Shown here piece by piece: positions 11,748 to 27,786 of a stretch of DNA of 64,000 bases (its first letter is position 1; every line of letters starts with the position of its first letter). The stretch spans positions 1-64,000 of the forward strand of contig JHVD01000007.1 in NCBI GenBank assembly GCA_000619965.1, written 5' to 3'. Under the pieces are notes generated by a model, which saw only the letters and a program-made list of their open reading frames with translations, made no database searches and was not told where the DNA came from. Both the position numbers and the translations under genes were made by a program. This DNA is from Propionibacteriaceae bacterium P6A17. Lineage in GTDB: Bacteria > Actinomycetota > Actinomycetes > Propionibacteriales > Propionibacteriaceae.

Positions 11748-13173
11748 GTCCAGCCTCCGATCGCCTCGAATCGCGCGCCAGCATCGACACCATGCACGCC
11801 ACCGCGGACAGCGTGACGCCGAGCAGCGCCAAGACCCGCAGTGCCACAGCGCTCGGCACCATGCGTCCGTCGAACGGCACCGCAAGCCCTGACACGATCG
11901 TAGCCACCACCGCGCTGGCCACGGCAGTCCCGACGGTGCGCATCAGGGCGTTGACCCCATTGGCCGAGCCCATCTCACGCAGCGGAGCGTGCGCGACGAT
12001 GAGCATCGGCAACGCCGCATACCCGATACCCACGCCGAAGCCGATGATCGTCGCCCACACGATCGTCCACGCCGCCGACGGCGAGATTGCGGCCCGCAGA
12101 AGGTAGCCCAGGCCGGTCACGACCGTGCCGATCACCAACGTCCAGCGCGGCCCGAGCCGTCCAGCGAGGCGGGCCGTGACCGGCGCGACGACGAACATCG
12201 CCGCAGCATTGGGCAGCATCGCCAACCCAGCCGCAGCCGCACCCCAGGCGAAGCCGCCGTGCGCCAGCGGATTCTGGAGCTGGATCGTCGTGGTCAGGAG
12301 GTTGGCGAACATGAGGACGCCCAGCAGCAACGACGCGAGGTTGGTGAACAGCAGCGCCCGGGTGCCGCTGACTCGCAGATCGACGATCGGCGAGGCCTGG
12401 CCGAGCTCAAAGCGGCCCCACACGATCAGCACGACCGCGCCCGCCCCCAGCGCAACGACGGTCCGCACGTCGCTCCAGCCCCAGGCACCCCCTTGGGAGA
12501 TGCCAAGCAACAGCGCGAGCAGGCCCACCCCAAGGCCGACGGCGCCCGGCACGTCGACGGTGCCGTCGTCGTCGGCATGGTTGGCCGGCATGAAACGCAC
12601 GATCAGCGCGATGGAGAGGACCGACAGCAGCGCGGACAGCCAGAACATCCACCGCCACCCCAGGTGGGCGATGATCTGCCCACCCAGCGGGATGCCGATG
12701 CCGCCGCCCACTCCGAGCGTGGAGCTGAGCGCAGCAAGCGCCGGCCCGACCCGCTTCGGGTCGAGGCTGTCTCGCAGCTGCGCCATCGCCACGGGCACGA
12801 GCGCGGTGCCCATGCCCTGCAAGACACGACCCGCGATGACCATGCCGATCCCGCCAAGCAGTGCGAGCAGCGAACCGACGAGCACGAGCGCCATCGACAG
12901 GAGCATCATGCGTCGCTTGCCGAACAGGTCGGCCAACCGCCCGAAGACCGGCGTAGCGATCGCGCCGGCCACCAGCGTGGCGGTGACCATCCAGGACACG
13001 GCGGCGGGCCTCGTCCCGAGCAGTTGCGGGAAGCGCGGCACTGCGGGCACGACGAGCGTCTGCTGCAGCGCCACCACTAGGCAGGCGATGCCGGCGACGA
13101 CCACCAGCGCCGTGTCCGAGGACGCGGCTCGCCCGCGCCGCAGCGTGACGTCGCTGACGATGGTCTCGGCCAT
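11740..13173 (-). CDS. MFS multidrug efflux transporter (DHA2-like)
   Basis: This 477-residue membrane protein has about 14 hydrophobic segments, as in DHA2 drug:proton antiporters. The motif-A loop GRLADLFGKRRMM between helices 2 and 3 and the helix-5 segment GVGGGIGIPLGG (motif C-like) are visible. I prefer the start at ATG 13173 (MAETIVSDVTLRRG); an in-frame ATG at 13239 would add 22 unremarkable residues. The stop overlaps the amidohydrolase start, and the operon is divergent from an Lrp-type regulator, which probably controls it. The substrate is unknown. Confidence 0.88.
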   Translation of the reverse strand: MAETIVSDVTLRRGRAASSDTALVVVAGIACLVVALQQTLVVPAVPRFPQLLGTRPAAVSWMVTATLVAGAIATPVFGRLADLFGKRRMMLLSMALVLVGSLLALLGGIGMVIAGRVLQGMGTALVPVAMAQLRDSLDPKRVGPALAALSSTLGVGGGIGIPLGGQIIAHLGWRWMFWLSALLSVLSIALIVRFMPANHADDDGTVDVPGAVGLGVGLLALLLGISQGGAWGWSDVRTVVALGAGAVVLIVWGRFELGQASPIVDLRVSGTRALLFTNLASLLLGVLMFANLLTTTIQLQNPLAHGGFAWGAAAAGLAMLPNAAAMFVVAPVTARLAGRLGPRWTLVIGTVVTGLGYLLRAAISPSAAWTIVWATIIGFGVGIGYAALPMLIVAHAPLREMGSANGVNALMRTVGTAVASAVVATIVSGLAVPFDGRMVPSAVALRVLALLGVTLSAVACMVSMLARDSRRSEAGHD

Positions 13174-17344: not shown

Positions 17345-18118
17345 ATGAACGACACGCATGTGCCGGCGGAAGGGGGCCTTGGCAAGCCCCTCGTCGTCCT
17401 CACCGACGTCAACAAGCACTTCGGCGACCTCCACGTACTCAAGGACATCAACCTGACCGTCCGCGAGGGCGAGGTCGTCGTCGTCATCGGGCCCTCCGGC
17501 TCGGGCAAGTCGACGCTGTGCCGCACCATCAACCGCCTGGAGACGTTCGAGTCCGGCTCGATCACGATCCACGGCACCCCCCTGCCAGAAGAAGGCAAGG
17601 AGCTGGCCAAGCTGAGGGCCGACGTCGGCATGGTGTTCCAGGGCTTCCACCTGTTCCACCACAAGACCATCCTCGACAACGTCACGCTCGGCCCCATCAA
17701 GGTCCGCAAGATGGAGCGCAAGGTGGCCGAGGAGAAGGCCATGGCGCTGCTGAAGCGCGTCGGCGTCGCCGAACAGGCACACAAATACCCCGCCCAACTC
17801 TCCGGTGGCCAGCAGCAGCGCGTCGCCATCGCGCGATCGCTCGCCATGGATCCGGTGGTGATGCTCTTCGACGAGCCCACCTCCGCCCTCGACCCGGAGA
17901 TGATCAACGAAGTGCTCGACGTCATGACCCAGCTCGCCAAGTCGGGCATGACCATGATCGTCGTCACCCATGAAATGGGATTCGCCCGCAGAGCTGCGGA
18001 CCGAGTCGTGTTCATGGCCGACGGCGCCATCGTCGAGGAGAACACCCCCGAGGAGTTCTTCACCAACCCCCAATCGGATCGCGCCAAGGACTTCCTCGGC
18101 AAGATCCTCACCCACTGA
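17345..18118 (+). CDS. gluA: Glutamate/polar amino-acid ABC transporter ATPase
   Basis: This 257-residue cytoplasmic ATPase has Walker [10 protein letters not shown] from residue 49, the signature [15 protein letters not shown] near 150, Walker B with DEPTSALD near 178 and the switch His in THEMGF. Sequence and order match GluA of GluABCD-type glutamate importers. It is the first gene of a four-gene operon. The 186-bp region before it holds a short hairpin (GGGTC-N8-GACCC, 17301-17318) just ahead of the start, possibly an operator. Confidence 0.93.
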
Positions 18119-18169
18119 CCCCACCGAGACCACTGAGACCATTCCCGCACCAGAAGGAGAACGATCCCA

Positions 18170-19003
18170 ATGCGCAAGACCACCTACCGCATCGCCGCAG
18201 CCGTCGCCGCCGCCGCACTCGCCCTCACCGCCTGTGGCGGCGACTCCGGCAGCTCCGCCGGCGGCGACTCGAAGAAGATCAAGATCGGCACGAAGTTCGA
18301 CCAGCCCGGCCTCGGCCTCAAGGAAGGCGACAACATGACGGGCTTCGACGTCGACGTCGCCAAGGCCGTCGCGAAGAAGCTCGGCTACGAGGAGAACCAG
18401 ATCGAGTGGGTCGAGTCGCCGTCGCCGCAGCGCGAGACCATGCTCGACGCCGGCACCGTCGACCTCATCTTCGCCACCTACTCCATCACCGACAAGCGCA
18501 AGGAGAAGGTGCAGTTCGGCGGGCCGTACCTCGTCGCAGGCCAGGACCTGCTCGTGCGCGCCGACGACACCGAGATCACCGGCCCCGACGCCCTCACCGG
18601 CAAGGTGCTGTGCTCCGTCTCCGGCTCCACCCCTGCCGAGAAGATCGCCAAGGAATACCCCGGCGTCCAGCTCCAGGAATACGACACCTACTCGCTGTGC
18701 GTCGAGGCGCTCGCCGCAGGCCAGGTGCAGGCGCTCACCACCGACGACGCGATCCTCGCCGGCTACGCGGCCCAGGAGAAGTGGGCCGGGCAGTTCAAGC
18801 TCGTCGGCAAGCCCTTCTCGGAAGAGCTCTACGGCGTCGGCGTCAAGAAGGGCTCCGACCTCTGCGAGAAGGTCAACACCGCCCTGACCGAACTGTTCGA
18901 CGACGGCTCCATGGACAAGATCGTCGCCGACAACCTCGGCCCCGCCAACTACACCCCCAACCCGGCCACCAACCCGGCCAAGCCCGGCGGCCACTGCGGC
19001 TGA
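18170..19003 (+). CDS. gluB: Glutamate ABC transporter substrate-binding lipoprotein
   Basis: This 277-residue exported binding protein has a lipoprotein signal peptide ending in the lipobox LTAC (Cys22), then a Ser/Gly linker and the periplasmic-binding fold SBP_bac_3 (IGTKFDQPGLGLKEG, then TGFDVDVAKAVAKKLG and ETMLDAGTVDLIFATYSITD). It would be anchored to the outer face of the membrane and deliver an acidic amino acid to GluCD. The ATG follows an AAGGAG site. Two extra Cys near the C-terminus and a proline-rich tail (NPATNPAKPGGHCG) are typical of actinobacterial GluB. Confidence 0.93.
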   Translation: MRKTTYRIAAAVAAAALALTACGGDSGSSAGGDSKKIKIGTKFDQPGLGLKEGDNMTGFDVDVAKAVAKKLGYEENQIEWVESPSPQRETMLDAGTVDLIFATYSITDKRKEKVQFGGPYLVAGQDLLVRADDTEITGPDALTGKVLCSVSGSTPAEKIAKEYPGVQLQEYDTYSLCVEALAAGQVQALTTDDAILAGYAAQEKWAGQFKLVGKPFSEELYGVGVKKGSDLCEKVNTALTELFDDGSMDKIVADNLGPANYTPNPATNPAKPGGHCG

Positions 19004-19110
19004 CCCAACGTGAGGGGGCGTCGCCGCGGCACCGCCCGGCGGCGCCCCCGACCGCGACGTGACCCGTCGGCTCGCCGCGGGGAGGCGTCGAAGATCGAGA
19101 AGGAGGTCCC

Positions 19111-19791
19111 GTGCTCGAGACCATTCAGGAATACGACTACTGGGCGGCAGTGGTCAACACCCTGGAGCTGACGCTCTGGGGCGCGCTGTGGGCACTGGTG
19201 CTCGGCACCGTACTCGCCATCATGCGGCTGTCCCCCGTCCGCGTGCTGCAATGGGCCGGCGCCGCCTACGTCACGATCGTGCGCAACACGCCGCTGACGA
19301 TGATCGTCGTCGCCGCCAACCTCATCATCTGGACCCAGCTCAAGATCAACCTCGCCGACCCGCAGTCGTCGACGTACATCGTCGACAACGGCATGCGGCT
19401 CGGCATCCTCGCCGTCGCCGTCTACCACGCGGCCTTCGTCTGCGAGGCGCTCCGCGCAGGCGTCAACACCATCCCCCTCGGGCAGGCCGAAGCGGCACGC
19501 TCGCTGGGCATGACCTTCCCGCAGAGCCTCACCCAGGTGATCCTCCCGCAGGCATTCCGCGGCGCCATCACCCCCCTCGGCAACGCCCTCATCGCACTGA
19601 CGAAGAACACGACGGTCGTCGTCGCCATCGGCGTGGCGCAGGTGTCGCACGCGATGCGGCGCATGATCGAGTTCAGGCCTGACCTCCTCTTCCAGATCTT
19701 CGGGCTCGTCGCACTCACCTTCGTCGCCATCACCCTGCCCATGGGCCTCGTCACCGGATGGGCCGCCAAGAAGTGGGCGGTGCAGCGATGA
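19111..19791 (+). CDS. gluC: Glutamate ABC transporter permease GluC
   Basis: This 226-residue inner-membrane permease of the HisM/GluC type has about five helices and the EAA loop EAARSLGMTFPQSLTQVILP, which docks the ATPase. It starts at GTG 19111, preceded by AAGGAGG. The stop overlaps the gluD start (ATGA), so translation is coupled. Confidence 0.93.
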   Translation: MLETIQEYDYWAAVVNTLELTLWGALWALVLGTVLAIMRLSPVRVLQWAGAAYVTIVRNTPLTMIVVAANLIIWTQLKINLADPQSSTYIVDNGMRLGILAVAVYHAAFVCEALRAGVNTIPLGQAEAARSLGMTFPQSLTQVILPQAFRGAITPLGNALIALTKNTTVVVAIGVAQVSHAMRRMIEFRPDLLFQIFGLVALTFVAITLPMGLVTGWAAKKWAVQR

Positions 19792-20678
19792 GCACCCAGG
19801 CAGTCCTGTTCGACGCACCCGGGCCGCGCACCCGGCGCCGCCACCTCCTCTACACGCTGATCGCAGGGGCCGCAGTCCTCGGGCTGGTCGGCTACGTCCT
19901 CGCCGTGCTGTGGCGCAACGGCCAGATCACACCCGACCGCTGGGCGCCCATCGTCGGGGCCGAAGCGTGGACGTCGTACCTCCTCCCCGGGCTCCAAGCC
20001 ACGCTGCTCGGCGCCCTGATCTCCATCGTGCTCGCGTTCCTGCTCGGCCTCGTGCTGGCGATGGCCCGCATGTCCGACATGCGCTGGCTGCGCGCCGTGG
20101 CGGCGGTCGTCGTCGAGTTCTTCCGCGCCGTGCCCGTGCTCATCATGATGCTGTTCGTGTTCTACCTCCTCACCTACCTGACCGACGTCGAGGGCATGTG
20201 GCCAAGCCTCATCGGCGTCGTCGTGGGGCTGGTGCTCTACAACGCGGCAGTGATCGCGGAAGTGGTGCGCAGCGGCGTCAACGCGCTCCCCAAGGGACAA
20301 GGCGAGGCGGGACTGTCCATCGGGCTCAGCTCGCTGCAGGTGCGGTCCATGATCCTGCTCCCCCAGGCGCTCACCGCAATGATGCCGACGCTCGTGAGCC
20401 AGCTCGTCGTCGTCCTCAAGGACACGGCGCTCGGCTACATCATCCTCTACCCCGAACTGCTGAACTCAGTGCGCCAGATGGGCACCCGATTCGGCAACGT
20501 CACCGTGGCGTTCATCGTCGGCGCCGCCGTGTTCATCCTCGTCAACTGGCTCATCACCGTCGTCGCCCACCGCCTCGAGCGCCGACTCCAGCGTCGCGGA
20601 CACATCGCAGCCGTCGTCATCAACCACGTCGAGCAGCCGCTCGAACACCAACCAGGCGGCAAGACGACGGACCAGTGA
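19788..20678 (+). CDS. gluD: Glutamate ABC transporter permease GluD
   Basis: This 296-residue partner permease has an N-terminal helix (residues 22-42), then the conserved core with the EAA-type loop GEAGLSIGLSSLQVRSMILL. The C-terminal charged tail (LEQPLEH-like, ending GGKTTDQ) is variable in this family. It is the last gene of gluABCD. The 258 bp that follow, up to 20936, contain a small hairpin (AGCCC-tacg-GGGCT near 20688) and a (CGAC)4 run, and I see no gene there. Confidence 0.93.
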   Translation: MSTQAVLFDAPGPRTRRRHLLYTLIAGAAVLGLVGYVLAVLWRNGQITPDRWAPIVGAEAWTSYLLPGLQATLLGALISIVLAFLLGLVLAMARMSDMRWLRAVAAVVVEFFRAVPVLIMMLFVFYLLTYLTDVEGMWPSLIGVVVGLVLYNAAVIAEVVRSGVNALPKGQGEAGLSIGLSSLQVRSMILLPQALTAMMPTLVSQLVVVLKDTALGYIILYPELLNSVRQMGTRFGNVTVAFIVGAAVFILVNWLITVVAHRLERRLQRRGHIAAVVINHVEQPLEHQPGGKTTDQ

Positions 20679-20936: not shown

Positions 20937-21665
20937 CTATTCGCCGACGACGCGCGGCAGCAGGGTCGAGTGCTCCTCGGGGGCGTCGTCGGGGTGGTCG
21001 GCCGTTGGGACGAACGGGGTGTCCGCGACGACGGGGGCAGACAAGTCGATCGTGCGGACGGTGCGCGGCACCAGCGGCTGCTGTACGTAGGTCGCGGCGG
21101 TGACGGGCACCGGGTCCCAGAAGACGCCGCGGTCGGCCGGCGCGGACAGGTCGATTGAGAACTCCGACGACAACGCCTGCTCCTCCACGAGCTCGATTCG
21201 AGTCGTGTCCTCGTCCTCCCGGAATCCCGCGTCGAGACCCGCGGCGTAGGCGTCCAGCCGTCGGTGCATCTGCACGACGGTGACCCTTGCGATGCCGAGG
21301 AACACCGTCGCCAGTCCGCCGGGGATGGCGATCGTCCACCAGGGCACGATCGACAGCCCCGCGAGCACCGCGAGCACGACGGCGGCAGCGAACAGCACGG
21401 CCAGGACCGTGAGGCGACGCCGGGCCGCTCGTCGGGCGGACATGTGCAGACCGTAGAACTCGGAAGCCCTGGTCAGCGGCGTGGAGACGACGCTCGGATC
21501 CCCAAACTCGATGACGTCGCGCTTGAGGATGCGCATCGACTCGGAGAAGCGTTCGTCCGGCTCATCGGCCAGTTCGCCGGGGCTCTGGCGCTGTTCGCCG
21601 ATCCACGGCAGCGCGTACCAGAGACCGACCACGAGGATGGCGGCGATCAGGATTCCGGCGAGCAT
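20937..21665 (-). CDS. glpR: GlpR/SepX-like divisome membrane protein
   Basis: This 242-residue protein has one N-terminal helix (residues 2-22), a cytosolic segment (ADEPDERFSESMRILKRDVI), two closely spaced helices (about 85-128) and an acidic, Asp/Pro-rich C-terminal tail. That layout, and the position next to a MoeA-like gene near galU and the 5-formyl-THF ligase gene, match GLPR of Corynebacterium and SepX of Streptomyces, membrane partners of the divisome. In Corynebacterium GLPR binds the gephyrin-like protein GLP, which binds FtsZ. The assignment rests on architecture and synteny. Confidence 0.75.
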   Translation of the reverse strand: MLAGILIAAILVVGLWYALPWIGEQRQSPGELADEPDERFSESMRILKRDVIEFGDPSVVSTPLTRASEFYGLHMSARRAARRRLTVLAVLFAAAVVLAVLAGLSIVPWWTIAIPGGLATVFLGIARVTVVQMHRRLDAYAAGLDAGFREDEDTTRIELVEEQALSSEFSIDLSAPADRGVFWDPVPVTAATYVQQPLVPRTVRTIDLSAPVVADTPFVPTADHPDDAPEEHSTLLPRVVGE

Positions 21666-21680
21666 GGGAACACGCTAACA

Positions 21681-21690
21681 ACATCGATGT
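21681..21690. promoter_or_regulatory. Palindrome in the glpR leader
   Basis: ACATCGATGT is a perfect 10-bp palindrome in a locally AT-rich patch 16 nt upstream of glpR. It may be an operator or part of its promoter (aattACAT-like -10 on the minus strand). The evidence is weak. Confidence 0.25.
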
Positions 21691-21747
21691 AATTTGGCTC
21701 GGGCCGCGCCGAGCGTCGCGGCAAAAGATCGAACGATTCCCGGCAGG

Positions 21748-23034
21748 TCAGCCGAGCGGCCAGTAGTGCACCGACTGCCCGGCCCGCACCGAGGCGGTGG
21801 ACTCGTCGAGGATCACCAGCGCATTGGCCTCCGCCAGCTCCGACAGCGCGTGCGGGCGCGACACGGGCGTCACCCGGTGAATCCCCGACTCCGCCTCGAC
21901 GTGCGCGCGCAACAGGTGCGTCTGCCCCTCCAACGAACGCATGCCGGCGGTCGCGATACCCCGCAGCTGTCGTCGCGACGGGTCACCCCCGGCGAGCTTG
22001 CGGATCAGCGGCCAGCCGAACGCCTGGAAGGACACGTAGGCGCTGACGGGGTTGCCCGGAAGCATGATCATCGGGATGTGGTCCTCGCCGATCAGCCCAA
22101 ACGTCTGGGTGCGCCCCGGGGTCATCGCCACCTGCGCAGAATCGACGAGCCCGAGCCCCGTCATGGCCTCGACCATCGCCTCGTAGTCCTCGCGGCGGCC
22201 GCCGGTGGTGGAGATCACGAGGTCGGCGCGGATGAGCTGGTCGGTGATGACGCGCTCGAGCTCGGCCCGATCATTCGTGCCGACGACCGCGTGGAACACC
22301 TGCGCCCCCGCTGCGCGGGCCGCGGCAGCGATGAGGAAGGAGTTGGCGTCGATCGACTGCCCGTCGGCGAGCGACCGCCCGGGCTCGACGAGACCCTCCC
22401 CTGAGCCCACGACGACGACCCTGGGCCTGGGGCGCACGAACACCTTGTCGATCCCCGCACTCGCCAGCAGGCCGATGCCGCGCTCGTCGAGCGAATCCCC
22501 CTCGTGCAGCAGGCACGTGCCGGCGGCGAGGTGCTCACCGGCGCTGCGCACGTACTCGCCGTCGCGCACCCGTTCGAACACGCGCACCAACTCACCCTCG
22601 CGGGCGCAGTAGACATCCGGCAGCACCGCTGTGGCTCCGGGCGGCAGGCGATCCCCGACGTGCACCGCGCGCACCGCACCCACCGGCAGGCGCGCGGCCC
22701 CGCTGTCGAGCTGGAGGGTTTCCGCAGGCTCGCCCGCGAGATCGGTGAGATCCGCGACGCGCACCGCATACCCGTCGACGAGCGCCGTCGAATGGGCGGG
22801 GACGTCGACGAGTGACGTCAGGTCCTCGCAGCTCACCTGCCCCCAGGCCTCGAGCAGCCCCATCCCGAAGGGGGGCAACGGCTCGACGAGGCCCAGGAGG
22901 TAGTCGGTGTGGTCCTGCATGGTGCGCAGGCCTGCCGCATTGGGCGCGGGAGGCTCCGGGAGCGCAGGAGCCGTCTCCTCCACCGCAGCCTCGACCTCGA
23001 CGGGGGCCACCTTCTTGCTGCCAAACCAAGCCAT
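21748..23034 (-). CDS. glp: MoeA/gephyrin-like protein (Glp)
   Basis: This 428-residue protein has a MoeA fold: MoeA_N (residues 35-190, including DVPAHSTALVDGYAV with the conserved DGYAV), the MoCF-binding domain (about 195-340) and MoeA_C (350-428). An unusual N-terminal extension starts MAWFGSKK and is rich in Glu, Ala and Pro. In the molybdopterin-binding domain the usual GGxSxGxxD is GGRREDYEA, so molybdate insertion may be impaired. In Corynebacterium a MoeA paralogue in this neighbourhood, GLP, serves cell division by binding FtsZ and GLPR. The gene lies just upstream of a glpR-like gene, so I favour that role. Confidence 0.82.
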   Translation of the reverse strand: MAWFGSKKVAPVEVEAAVEETAPALPEPPAPNAAGLRTMQDHTDYLLGLVEPLPPFGMGLLEAWGQVSCEDLTSLVDVPAHSTALVDGYAVRVADLTDLAGEPAETLQLDSGAARLPVGAVRAVHVGDRLPPGATAVLPDVYCAREGELVRVFERVRDGEYVRSAGEHLAAGTCLLHEGDSLDERGIGLLASAGIDKVFVRPRPRVVVVGSGEGLVEPGRSLADGQSIDANSFLIAAAARAAGAQVFHAVVGTNDRAELERVITDQLIRADLVISTTGGRREDYEAMVEAMTGLGLVDSAQVAMTPGRTQTFGLIGEDHIPMIMLPGNPVSAYVSFQAFGWPLIRKLAGGDPSRRQLRGIATAGMRSLEGQTHLLRAHVEAESGIHRVTPVSRPHALSELAEANALVILDESTASVRAGQSVHYWPLG

Positions 23035-23051
23035 GCTCCTACGATAGACGG

Positions 23052-23648
23052 ATGGACCTCAGCAAGGCCGCACTCCGCGCCGCGGCGCGCAACTCGCGCG
23101 ACCCGGATGCGATGGCCGCGGAGGACGCTCGTCGCCTGCGCCACTTCCTCGGCTGGCTGCCCCCCGCCCCCGGCATCCTCGCGGTCTACGTGGGCGTCCC
23201 CGGCGAGCCCGACACGTCGGGCCTCATCGACGCGGCACGGGAGCGGGGGTGGGAAGTGCGCGCCCCAATCTTGGGCCGGTCTCCCGACTGGGCGCGGTTC
23301 GACGGCTGGGACGGGCTGCGCCCGGCATGGCGGGGAATCCCCGAGCCGACGGGGACCCGACTGGGTGCCCAGTCACTGGCGGAGGCGGACATCGTCGTCG
23401 CATCCTGCCTTGCCGTGGACGAGGAGGGGTATCGACTGGGGGTGGGCGGCGGCTGGTACGACCGGGCGCTGCTGCACCGACGAAGTGACGCGGTCGTCGT
23501 CGCGTGGGCGCGGGACGCGGAAGTGGTGCCCCGCCTGCCCCGCGAGCCGTTCGACGTGCCCGTCGACCATTGGTGCACCGAAACCGGCATGCACTCCCCG
23601 CTCGGGACGCAGCCGCCACCGGCTGCCGCTCCGGGGCCCTCCGTCTGA
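23052..23648 (+). CDS. 5-formyltetrahydrofolate cyclo-ligase
   Basis: This 198-residue enzyme converts 5-formyl-THF and ATP to 5,10-methenyl-THF. It has an N-terminal MDLSKAALRAAARNSRDPDA and the family's VPAL/CLAVDEEGYRLGVGGGWYDR block, where GxGGGxYDR binds ATP and Mg. The length is normal, and the C-terminus is extended by a Pro/Ala tail (GTQPPPAAAPGPSV). It starts 17 nt from the divergent glp gene, a synteny shared by many actinobacteria. Confidence 0.93.
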   Translation: MDLSKAALRAAARNSRDPDAMAAEDARRLRHFLGWLPPAPGILAVYVGVPGEPDTSGLIDAARERGWEVRAPILGRSPDWARFDGWDGLRPAWRGIPEPTGTRLGAQSLAEADIVVASCLAVDEEGYRLGVGGGWYDRALLHRRSDAVVVAWARDAEVVPRLPREPFDVPVDHWCTETGMHSPLGTQPPPAAAPGPSV

Positions 23649-23923: not shown

Positions 23924-24238
23924 GTGCCCAAGTACCAGTACCGTTGCGCCGACTGCGGCGCCGACCTCGAGGTGCAGCAGAAGTTCACCGACGACGCCCT
24001 GACCGTCTGCCCCGAGTGCGAGGGGCGCCTCAACAAGGTGTTCAGCGCGGTGGGCGTGGTGTTCAAGGGTTCCGGGTTCTACAAGACGGACTCGCGCGGC
24101 GATCGCACGTCGCCGAAGGCCTCGTCCACCGCGAGCAGCTCGACGAACGCGTCGTCGTCCAGCTCCGCCGCTGGCACCTCTGGCACCGCGTCGAGCAGTT
24201 CGACGAGCAGCTCCGGCGCGGCCGCCGCGGCAAGCTGA
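23924..24238 (+). CDS. FmdB-family zinc-ribbon protein
   Basis: This 104-residue protein begins MPKYQYRCADCGADLEVQQK and has a second pair of Cys in VCPECEGRLNKVFSAVG, the four-Cys zinc ribbon of the FmdB/CxxC_CXXC_SSSS family (a regulator-like domain of uncertain role). FKGSGFYKTD is the usual end of the core. The tail from residue 65 is almost pure Ser, Thr, Ala and Gly, as is typical. Start GTG 23924 follows GGAGGAA; a -10-like TACACT lies at 23889. Confidence 0.92.
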   Translation: MPKYQYRCADCGADLEVQQKFTDDALTVCPECEGRLNKVFSAVGVVFKGSGFYKTDSRGDRTSPKASSTASSSTNASSSSSAAGTSGTASSSSTSSSGAAAAAS

Positions 24239-24305: not shown

Positions 24306-24926
24306 GTGCAGTTCCCATCTCGTGTCGCTTCCTTCATCCGCTGGCATCGCCGCCTGATCGCCGCCTGCCTGGCCGCACTGGTCGTCGCGGGCATCGTCCA
24401 GGCAGCGACGGCGCGTCCGCCCGAAGGCGAGCCGGTCGTCGCGCTCACCCGTCATGTCCCGGCTGGGCAGCCCATTCCCGACGACGCCCTCGGTCTCGTC
24501 CACCTGCCGGCTGCCGCCATCTCCGACGACACGCTGCGGGATCCGACGCAAGTGGCAGGGGCGCAGGCGGCCGTCGCGCTCGGGGAGGGCCAGGTGCTCA
24601 CGCAGGCCATGCTGCTGCGAGGAGGCGTGGCGGCCGAGGGCAAGTCGCTCGTGCCCATCGCCGTCGAGCGTCCGGAGCTGCGTTCCCTGCTGGCGCCCGG
24701 AGCGGTGGTGCGGCTCGTGGTCGCGCTGGGCGACGTGCCAGAAGTGGTGTGCACGGCCCGCATCGCCACTCTGCCCGCAGAACGCGACGGCACCGTCGCG
24801 ACCGCGCGCGCTGGGTCCGGGATGGTGGTCGTCGAGGTCCCGACGGACGTCGCGCCGGTCGTCGCCACCCTCGGGCAGGGCGGCCAGCTCTCCGTCGTGC
24901 TGGGCGACGACGGCGGTCCACCCTGA
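24306..24926 (+). CDS. SAF-domain membrane-anchored protein (CpaB-like)
   Basis: This 206-residue protein has an N-terminal membrane anchor (residues 14-34), then a SAF domain (VVALTRHVPAGQPIPDDALG, then GAQAAVALGEGQVLTQAML) and a second beta-rich part (PIAVERPELRSLLAPGAVVR). SAF domains occur in the Flp pilus protein CpaB and in FlgA-like chaperones. There is no pilus gene nearby, and in many actinobacteria this lone gene lies next to fmdB and mscL, as here. Start is GTG 24306. Its last codons lie inside the first copy of a 60-bp tandem repeat, so the C-terminus may be repeat-derived. Confidence 0.8.
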   Translation: MQFPSRVASFIRWHRRLIAACLAALVVAGIVQAATARPPEGEPVVALTRHVPAGQPIPDDALGLVHLPAAAISDDTLRDPTQVAGAQAAVALGEGQVLTQAMLLRGGVAAEGKSLVPIAVERPELRSLLAPGAVVRLVVALGDVPEVVCTARIATLPAERDGTVATARAGSGMVVVEVPTDVAPVVATLGQGGQLSVVLGDDGGPP

Positions 24927-25235: not shown

Positions 25236-25604
25236 ATGCAGGGTTTCAAGGACTTCATCATGCGCGGCAATCTCGTCGAGCTCGCCGTCGCGTTCATCAT
25301 CGGCGGCGCCTTCGCGACGGTGGTCGAGGCATTCACCAAGATCATGCTCGACCTCATCGGCAAGCTCGGCGGCACCCCCGACTTCTCTTCCTTCAACCCC
25401 GGCGGTGTCAGCGTTGGCCCGTTCCTGACGGCCCTCATCGCCTTCCTCATCCTGGCCTTCGTGGTGTACTTCGGCGTCGTGAAGCCGTACAACTTCGCCA
25501 AGGAGCGCATGGCCAAGTCCGAGGAGGAGGCTCCCGCCGAGCCCACCGCCGAGGAGAAGCTGCTCGTCGAGATCCGCGACCTGCTGAAGGCGCAGCGCGC
25601 CTGA
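25236..25604 (+). CDS. mscL: Large-conductance mechanosensitive channel MscL
   Basis: This 122-residue channel has the amphipathic N-terminal helix (MQGFKDFIMRGNLVELAVAF), TM1 with the Gly/Ala-rich gate (AFIIGGAFATVVEAF), a short periplasmic loop, TM2 (LTALIAFLILAFVVYFGVV) and a charged C-terminal bundle (EEKLLVEIRDLLKAQ). It releases solutes on hypo-osmotic shock as a pentamer in the inner membrane. The gene stands alone with a possible promoter about 100 nt upstream. Confidence 0.96.
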   Translation: MQGFKDFIMRGNLVELAVAFIIGGAFATVVEAFTKIMLDLIGKLGGTPDFSSFNPGGVSVGPFLTALIAFLILAFVVYFGVVKPYNFAKERMAKSEEEAPAEPTAEEKLLVEIRDLLKAQRA

Positions 25605-25899: not shown

Positions 25900-26262
25900 T
25901 CAGCCCCAGTGGGGCGGGCGGTCGGCGACCAGCCGGCGCTCGTCGACGTTGAGCGGTCGGCGCGCGGGCCGGGTGGGCACGAGCCCCGTGAGCCCGAGCA
26001 GTTCCCGCACTGCCTGCAGACGCGCGTGGAAGACGGCGAAGCCGATGTCGGCCACTGCTTCCCGCTCGACGGGAAACGGCCACGGCTCCCCCGCCTCCTG
26101 TTGACGGGTGCGCACGTCGGCCAGCGCGGCCGGGCCGAGGCCGAGCTCCTCGAGCGCCGCAGCGACGTCGTCGGGGCTCGGCGAAGTGAGCGGCAGCTCG
26201 CGGCCCGTCAGCGCGCGCCCCAATTCGACGGCGAACCTCGCCTGGCGCCCGGGATCGGTCAC
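25900..26262 (-). CDS. Conserved small hypothetical protein after UGPase
   Basis: This 120-residue protein of unknown function begins TDPGRQARFAVELGRALTGR, with alpha-helical content and the segment DDVAAALEELGLGPAALADV. The C-terminal half is rich in Arg and Pro, and there is no membrane segment or signal. Its GTG overlaps the UGPase stop (GTGA), so the two are co-translated, which supports its being real. I recognise no domain. Confidence 0.7.
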   Translation of the reverse strand: MTDPGRQARFAVELGRALTGRELPLTSPSPDDVAAALEELGLGPAALADVRTRQQEAGEPWPFPVEREAVADIGFAVFHARLQAVRELLGLTGLVPTRPARRPLNVDERRLVADRPPHWG

Positions 26263-27638
26263 TGGCCGAGCTCAGCCCCGTCAGCGACACGCTGCGGGAC
26301 GCCGCGATCGTCGAGCACGGCGTCGCCGACGACGCGCACGTCGCGCCCGAACGTCCAATCGCCGCGCACCTTCAGGCTCGTCGCGTCCCGCAGACTGGGC
26401 GCGTGCGGGATGCGCTCGTCGAACTTCGCGATCGTCTTGAAGTGCGCGGAGTCGAGCGAAATCTCGGGCGAATGCCCGGTGCGCGCGACGAGGTGCCCGC
26501 CCTCGTCGAGGTCGTAGACGTCGGAGCGCAGCAGGAGCAGCTCGTTGGTGGTCTTGACCGGCAGGAAGCGGTCGCGGCCCACGCAGATGGCGGTGGCGCC
26601 CTCGAACACCTCGATCGCCGCACCCATCGCGGATTCGATCTGCACGACCGGAGTCGAGGAGGAGTCGGTGGGGTCCACGGTCTTCTCGTTGCGGATCAGC
26701 GGCAGCCCCAGCACGGAATTGCGCTCGACGAGCGCCTCCTTCAACCGCACGAGATCAAACCACAGGTTGTTGGTGTGGAAGAACGGATGGCGGAACTCGT
26801 CGGTGAAGAAGTCCATCTCCTCCGGTGCGGTCTGGGCGGTGTCGCGCAGGATGAGCTGTCCGTCCACCTTGCGAATCGCGAGGTGACCGCCCTTCTTGTC
26901 GTTGACCGTCCGGCGGCACAACTCGGCAGCGTACGGGGCGCCCGACTGTGCAAACCAACCAGCGATGCGCGCACTCGGCGCGGCCCCGAGGTTGTCGCCA
27001 TTCGAGACGCAGGCGTAGCGGTAGCCGGCGGCCAGGAGCTGATCGAGCACCCCCGAGCCCTCGAGTGCCGGGTAGAGGTCACCGTGCCCGGGCGGGCACC
27101 ACTCCAGCGACGGGTCATCCGGCCACTCGACGGGGGTGAGGTCGTCGGCGCGCAGCTTCGGCTCCTGATTCTGCAGGAACGTCAGCGGCAGGCCGTCGAC
27201 GGCCAACTCCGGGTAGCGCGTCAGGAAGTCACGCGTGTCGGCGTCGGTGCGGAAGCTCGTCATGAACAGCACGGGCAGACGCGCCCCGTGCTCGGCGCGC
27301 GCCGACAGCACTTGGCGGGCGATGAGGTCGAGGAAGTTGAGCCCATCGCGCACCTCGAGCAGGGTCTTGGCCTTGTCAAGCCCCATCGACGTGCCGAGGC
27401 CGCCGTTGAGCTTGATGACCACCAATTGGTCGAGCGCAGCGCGGGCCTGCTCGTCGGAGACCGCGACGTCGTCGAGCATCGGCGGATCCGTCAGCGGCTC
27501 GATGCTCTCCTCCCGGATGACGCCCGTGGCTCCGGACTCCAACTGCGTGTAGAAGCTCGAGAACACTTCGATGGCCGGGGCGGCGACGCCGGCGGCCTCC
27601 ATCTTCGCTCGGGCGGCCTCGAGGCCTGCTCGGGACAT
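26259..27638 (-). CDS. UTP-glucose-1-phosphate uridylyltransferase (UDPGP family)
   Basis: This 459-residue enzyme makes UDP-glucose from UTP and glucose-1-phosphate. It belongs to the eukaryotic-type UDPGP family: the nucleotide loop VVIKLNGGLGTSMGLDKAKT, LFMTSFRTDADTRDFL, NQEPKLRADD, PPGHGDLYPALEGSG, VSNGDNLGA, and a C-terminal beta-helix. Bacterial GalU is a different, shorter family, so the symbol galU does not strictly apply. The start is ATG 27638 after GGAGGACG. An upstream in-frame Met lacks a ribosome binding site. Confidence 0.94.
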   Translation of the reverse strand: MSRAGLEAARAKMEAAGVAAPAIEVFSSFYTQLESGATGVIREESIEPLTDPPMLDDVAVSDEQARAALDQLVVIKLNGGLGTSMGLDKAKTLLEVRDGLNFLDLIARQVLSARAEHGARLPVLFMTSFRTDADTRDFLTRYPELAVDGLPLTFLQNQEPKLRADDLTPVEWPDDPSLEWCPPGHGDLYPALEGSGVLDQLLAAGYRYACVSNGDNLGAAPSARIAGWFAQSGAPYAAELCRRTVNDKKGGHLAIRKVDGQLILRDTAQTAPEEMDFFTDEFRHPFFHTNNLWFDLVRLKEALVERNSVLGLPLIRNEKTVDPTDSSSTPVVQIESAMGAAIEVFEGATAICVGRDRFLPVKTTNELLLLRSDVYDLDEGGHLVARTGHSPEISLDSAHFKTIAKFDERIPHAPSLRDATSLKVRGDWTFGRDVRVVGDAVLDDRGVPQRVADGAELGQ

Positions 27639-27786
27639 ACGACGTCCTCCTTGGGGTTGGCTCGGCTCCAACGCTACCGCGCGCCAAGCCACAGGTGCCC
27701 CGTCGGGGCGGCAAACGCGCAGCCGATGCGCGCACGCCGACGGGGAATCGTCGCTTTCACGGGGAACGGCTAGAATCGCTCACGTT

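Follow-up and report, generated by a model that had tools for sequence, protein, structure and literature searches.

We analysed the whole 64,000-nucleotide stretch at positions 1 to 64,000 of contig JHVD01000007.1 of Propionibacteriaceae bacterium P6A17, called here the window. The following features carry the argument (window coordinates; the basis of each assignment is in brackets).

20937..21665, minus strand: GlpR (SepX), a 242-aa three-helix membrane protein with a short acidic loop and an acidic disordered tail (NCBIfam, hydropathy)
21042..21119, minus strand: conserved GlpR tail motif WDPVPVTAATYVQQPLVPRTVRTIDL, residues 183-208, a candidate Glp-docking motif (alignment)
21276..21665, minus strand: membrane part of GlpR, predicted helices 1-19, 89-107 and 112-130 (hydropathy)
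21748..23034, minus strand: Glp, a gephyrin-like, catalytically degenerate MoeA-family protein of 428 aa (Pfam, NCBIfam, tree, active-site alignment, fold)
21868..21924, minus strand: beta-hairpin of Glp domain IV, residues 371-389, counterpart of the FtsZ/GlpR-binding loop of C. glutamicum (alignment, model)
22423..22437, minus strand: proline-rich hinge 2 of Glp, RPRPR, residues 200-204 (alignment)
23052..23648, plus strand: 5-formyltetrahydrofolate cyclo-ligase (5-FCL), PF01812, divergent neighbour (Pfam)
23924..24238, plus strand: FmdB-type zinc-ribbon protein, conserved neighbour (NCBIfam, synteny)
24306..24926, plus strand: SAF-domain/CpaB-like protein, conserved neighbour (Pfam, NCBIfam, synteny)
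25236..25604, plus strand: MscL mechanosensitive channel, conserved neighbour (Pfam, synteny)
26259..27692, minus strand: UTP-glucose-1-phosphate uridylyltransferase (UGPase), UDPGP type (PF01704, synteny)

A preliminary description had placed a MoeA-like reading frame and a three-helix, acidic-tailed membrane protein beside the 5-FCL gene and near UGPase, and these positions were right; UGPase lies 3.2 kb from glp. The gene order UGPase, MscL, SAF/CpaB, FmdB, 5-FCL, then glp and glpR, recurs across Propionibacteriaceae at most of the family glp loci retrieved with sufficient flanking sequence, in genomes both with and without MoaC. In the window, glp and glpR are separated by 82 bp, and this gap contains no GNAT gene. 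The gap is wider in relatives, and in the one relative that was read (G013) it encloses a GNAT acetyltransferase. In C. glutamicum, rimJ lies between the two. The divergent start codons of glp and 5-FCL are just 18 bp apart (23034-23052), so that one of the two true starts probably lies further inside and the glp start codon is uncertain; residues 1-18 of Glp have low confidence in the structure model. On the other side, amino-acid ABC transporter genes (by sequence, an ATPase, a binding protein and two permeases; 17345-20678) are convergent with glpR and are not kept at other glp loci.

The glp reading frame encodes MoeA_N, MoCF_biosynth and MoeA_C domains (Pfam). Among NCBIfam models it scores highest against Glp_gephyrin (357 bits, E 9e-107, under the curated cut-off of 475), followed by MoeA_actino (243 bits). 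The neighbouring frame matches SepX_GlpR_2 (E 5e-27; 95 bits, under the cut-off of 150) and is the sole match to the SepX/GlpR model in the host genome. Both proteins score under their cut-offs throughout the genus, and the Glp of every other genus member likewise falls below 475. The relatives of Glp were recovered by an alignment-based contig search; a single-sequence search with the window Glp gave no match. In a quick tree with some long branches, the Glp clade (SH-aLRT 99) takes in C. glutamicum Glp at its base and leaves out the 22 MoeA-type proteins of the family and E. coli MoeA, and the window Glp groups with Glp, apart from the MoeA of its own genus. Among named organisms, Tessaracoccus oleiagri (75%) and Tessaracoccus sp. 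OH4464 have the Glp closest to it; Arachnia propionica falls into their group, and the host belongs to the Tessaracoccus/Arachnia group of Propionibacteriaceae. A proline-rich hinge joins domains I and III of the window Glp (hinge 1 is EPLPPFG). The hinge signature RP[RKH]P[RK] marks 76 of the 82 Glp of the family and none of 22 MoeA.

The four-domain MoeA fold is present by Pfam domains, model and fold comparison, and the window Glp resembles MoeA, the gephyrin E domain and Cnx1E in fold and domain order (Z 32-35). Unlike them, it has lost catalytic residues and carries a proline-rich hinge, in a host without MoaC. The modelled monomer was tied between Glp (8bve, Z 35.4) and the Mo-insertase Cnx1E (Z 35.3); because of this tie between Glp and MoeA/Cnx1E structures we dropped the fold as proof of an open Glp conformation. 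Compared with T. oleiagri, dN/dS was 0.20 for Glp and 0.34 for GlpR, with FtsZ (0.16) as control; by this codon-level measure both window proteins are under purifying selection. The tree branches of the window Glp and of its MoaC-bearing sister in T. oleiagri are equal (0.18 and 0.18).

From hydropathy alone, GlpR has three hydrophobic segments and two predicted cytoplasmic disordered regions, the first of them short; the acidic tail comprises 112 residues with a pI of 4.3. Within the tail, the consensus W[DE]PxP[VI]TxPTYV[SQ]xPLxPR[TS]VRTIDL occurs, with variants, across nearly the whole of Propionibacteriaceae. Several further families of actinomycetes have it in the form WDPVPVPLPTYV, and it is not present in the GlpR of the Mycobacteriales-type family f5 (this and the family labels below were read from sequence and genome size, not from names). 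The f5 tails (L258-L263) carry DEDPxFEHL in place of the W-P-PTYV motif. Many GlpR end in R-[AV]-[AV]-G-x, and that of the window ends in RVVGE; a universal C-terminal RAVGx motif was rejected, as it was found in just 36 of 85 family members. The conserved tail motif is the obvious candidate for the contact with Glp. Around its proline it resembles the FtsZ tail (I/V-x-x-P-T-Y-V vs L-D-V-P-D-F-L/M), a likeness that would explain why deletion of one Glp hairpin in C. glutamicum abolished the interactions with both FtsZ and GlpR (PMC10522489).

Next, we considered the molybdenum cofactor status of the host, whose genome (2.73 Mb) is 100% complete. MoaC was not found in it. The one MoCF_biosynth gene is glp itself, and the same search returned no second MoeA, MogA or MoaB. 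A single protein matched PF00384; its gene sits directly before NuoH, so that this match was rejected as a molybdoenzyme and assigned to NuoG of complex I, and the PF00384 search gave no NarG. MoaC, a separate MoeA and PF00384 proteins of NarG size are present in each of the seven congeners sampled. At the positions of the E. coli MoeA mutants named in PDB titles (D59, T100, R137, D142, E188, D228, R350 and S371), the window Glp carries T100V, D142H, E188G, D228N and S371P, while D59, R137, P298 and P301 are retained; judged from these residues, its MoeA active site is dead. Most likely, the host has lost molybdenum-cofactor synthesis and has kept Glp for another job, cell division, a case that is built on searches for MoaC, MoCF_biosynth and PF00384. 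In a host lacking this synthesis, a relative of MoeA must serve some other job. The preliminary description had envisaged that loss of the pair might cause only molybdoenzyme defects; such an outcome is very unlikely, since the host has no MoaC, no second MoeA-family or Mog-type gene and no NarG.

The same pattern extends over the family. Glp and GlpR are present in all 94 near-complete Propionibacteriaceae genomes and MoaC in 65 of them. Exactly one MoeA/Glp-family gene was found in 28 of the 29 MoaC-less genomes, whereas the MoaC-bearing ones have at least two in 45 of 65 cases and one in 20 (Fisher p 6e-10, uncorrected for relatedness). Mapped onto the Glp tree, the MoaC-less state requires 13 changes, of which well-supported branches force at least seven. 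These counts and changes indicate that MoeA goes together with the pathway and Glp stays. The state of the active site differs among Glp of the three backgrounds. A Glp that is the sole MoeA-family gene of a MoaC-bearing genome retains all 11 active-site positions (22/22, two of these genomes being incomplete). With a separate MoeA in the genome, a mean of 5.6 of the 11 positions is kept; in MoaC-less genomes the mean is 4.6 and none of 27 Glp is fully intact, T100 being kept in 1/28 and S371 in 0/28. Thus, three states exist within Propionibacteriaceae: one gene that is both enzyme and partner, one gene for each, and, once MoaC has been lost, only the partner.

We extended the comparison to the class with 118 genomes, 100 of them near-complete. 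Exactly one match to the Glp/MoeA model was present in 36 of these 100, and we examined the loci of 20 of the 36 (L288-L307). The single-copy Glp lies beside moaC in all 20 and also beside mog in 19, it keeps 10 or 11 of 11 active-site residues in all 20, and GlpR is on the same contig in most of these genomes. A 2025 paper (PMC11733289) states that bacteria with Glp possess two or more MoeA genes and that the enzymatic role of Glp is lost. As given there, this view fits Mycobacteriales, not most of the lineages sampled here. The opposite extreme was observed in f27, a family with small genomes (1.3-2.2 Mb), in seven genomes (G160, G193, G141, G178, G207, G219 and G230; loci L308-L314) whose Glp of about 310 residues lacks domain II through a clean deletion of ~100 residues between DAHGATL and AEDIYAG. 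The hinge and domains III and IV are kept and GlpR is close by; no moaC or mog lies beside Glp at any of the seven loci. Without domain II, enzymatic activity of a MoeA would not be expected.

As for the division machinery, the C-terminal tail of the host FtsZ, DDDELDVPDFMK, keeps LDVPDF. SepF is encoded just downstream of ftsZ and is followed by a Wag31 homologue, which was recognised by reading the ftsZ region; its N-terminal DivIVA domain is divergent, and the PF05103 search missed it. A second DivIVA-domain protein (366-aa frame, L257) lies outside the ftsZ cluster on contig 17 of G000 (12635-12952). It outscores the ftsZ-cluster protein on PF05103; this match was rejected as Wag31, which is encoded in the ftsZ cluster.

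The FtsZ-binding loop of Glp, bounded by M361 and Y369, was defined on Corynebacteriales (PMC10522489). At these two positions the window Glp has E and H, and its hairpin is two residues shorter. M361, Y369 and the longer hairpin occur together only in C. glutamicum Glp and in the f5 Glp; no other Glp in the class-wide list, nor that of the window, has both residues. We therefore treat the loop as a lineage feature and not as one that defines the family. It is exactly the f5 lineage, whose GlpR is devoid of the tail motif, that has the long-hairpin Glp, so that receptor and adaptor appear to have changed together. The published FtsZ-binding side chains are, by this alignment, not transferable to the window Glp, and the preliminary proposal that Glp bridges FtsZ to the membrane receptor was borne out in part: the hinge, the clade and the LDVPDF tail fit it, but M361 and Y369 are replaced and the hairpin is shorter.

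Family models, tree, synteny and co-occurrence agree with the preliminary assignment of a Glp/GlpR pair. The identity is secure, and a septal function is likely; we have good confidence in reading the pair as the divisome adaptor Glp of actinobacteria and its membrane receptor, GlpR/SepX. In C. glutamicum, the FtsZ C-terminal tail and GlpR bind an overlapping site on domain IV of Glp, GlpR binds to Wag31, and localisation to the septum occurs early (PMC10522489). By analogy, a catalytically dead MoeA-fold dimer that makes no molybdenum cofactor would serve as a septal adaptor. GlpR, anchored by its three helices, would capture it at the membrane by the cytoplasmic tail, probably via the conserved motif; Glp would contact the early division ring (in C. 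glutamicum, via the FtsZ C-terminal tail) and GlpR the polar scaffold Wag31/DivIVA. Both identities, the loss of catalytic residues, the gene losses, the retention of the pair with and without MoaC, the GlpR motif and the presence of FtsZ, SepF and Wag31 were computed here, and septal localisation, Glp-GlpR binding and the contacts with FtsZ and Wag31 are expected by comparison with C. glutamicum and Streptomyces. Contact with FtsZ is the weakest link of this explanation, because the contact side chains of C. glutamicum are missing here. Further points that weigh against the explanation are the scores of both proteins under the NCBIfam cut-offs, the acidic GlpR tail where IDR2 of C. glutamicum is basic, the tie in the fold comparison, and the report that SepX of Streptomyces bound none of the divisome proteins tested other than itself and DynB (PMC8748795).

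We tentatively propose a broader scheme, to which we give somewhat less than an even chance. Glp would be ancestrally bifunctional and, in most Actinomycetes, still a working MoeA (glp-moaC-mog) that is also the partner of GlpR; decay of the active site or loss of domain II would follow only after gain of a second MoeA or loss of the cofactor. The GlpR tail peptide W-x-P-x-P-[VI]-x-x-P-T-Y-V, with its likeness to the FtsZ tail (L-D-V-P-D-F), would dock on Glp and compete for, or pair with, the site on domain IV of Glp that the FtsZ tail uses, and Mycobacteriales would have a variant hairpin and tail.

Alternatively, the pair could be a divisome module in which Glp outside Mycobacteriales does not bind the FtsZ tail and acts only via GlpR together with DynB, DivIVA or another protein, the FtsZ loop being a Mycobacteriales innovation. 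The restriction of M361, Y369 and the longer hairpin to C. glutamicum and f5 Glp suits this, as do the joint shift of both proteins (f5 lacks the GlpR motif that Propionibacteriaceae and others have) and the presence of DynB among the SepX partners in Streptomyces (PMC8748795). Still, the host FtsZ tail is conserved, and a change of side chains need not prevent binding, as the main chain makes some of the FtsZ contact seen in the Glp crystal (PMC10522489); we consider this alternative rather unlikely. A retained enzymatic role on another substrate, such as a nucleotide or a salvaged pterin, in place of a scaffold would agree with the persistence of D59, R137, P298 and P301, but it is very improbable given the free drift of the active site in MoaC-less genomes, where T100 and S371 are practically gone, and the absence of domain II in f27. 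Least credible of all is that an ordinary molybdopterin molybdotransferase lies beside an unrelated membrane protein: the complete MoeA domain set and a fold equally near plant Cnx1E and Glp speak for it, against five altered catalytic positions, a grouping with Glp and not with the MoeA of the genus, GlpR in every near-complete family genome, and a host without MoaC, another MoCF-domain gene or NarG.

The divisome adaptor reading places the window beside two known systems. As in C. glutamicum (Cgl0883/Cgl0885, PDB 8bve/8bvf; PMC10522489), the genes are paired among similar neighbours, a MoeA fold with a proline-rich hinge is combined with a three-helix receptor with cytoplasmic disorder, and FtsZ, SepF and Wag31 are present in the host. 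Unlike there, no GNAT separates glp from glpR, M361 and Y369 are absent, and both disordered parts of GlpR, the short loop and the tail, are acidic, compared with an acidic IDR1 and a basic IDR2 in C. glutamicum (PMC10522489). C. glutamicum has two further MoeA, whereas the host has neither MoaC nor a second MoeA-family gene. SepX is known from Streptomyces, where it is reported to bind itself and DynB and no other divisome protein tested (PMC8748795); the S. venezuelae protein (PMC8748795) belongs to the same NCBIfam SepX/GlpR family and has three helices. The GlpR of the Streptomyces-like family f20 (9-Mb genomes) carries the same tail motif (WDPVPVPLPTYV vs WDPVPVTAATYV). Unlike the host, f20 genomes combine a second MoeA-family gene with a Glp that is intact and encoded in a glp-moaC-mog cluster, and Streptomyces has a hyphal life cycle.

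The earlier suggestion of an extension of the module to a further family has been anticipated: co-localisation and co-occurrence of glp and glpr across Actinomycetes are described (PMC10522489), SepX is described from Streptomyces (PMC8748795), and NCBIfam holds models for both proteins. What is new here is the comparison (the pair without cofactor synthesis, the sole-copy Glp and f27), not the occurrence of the pair beyond Corynebacterium. In the open-licence literature we found no report of Glp kept without cofactor synthesis, of a sole-copy intact Glp as a common state, or of a domain-II-less Glp or the GlpR tail motif.

The three states of Glp and MoeA within one family constitute a natural experiment on the separability of scaffold and enzyme functions. 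In MoaC-less hosts, a division phenotype of a glp mutant would not be attributable to molybdoenzymes, and the conserved GlpR tail motif offers a short candidate sequence through which the receptor may contact the scaffold.
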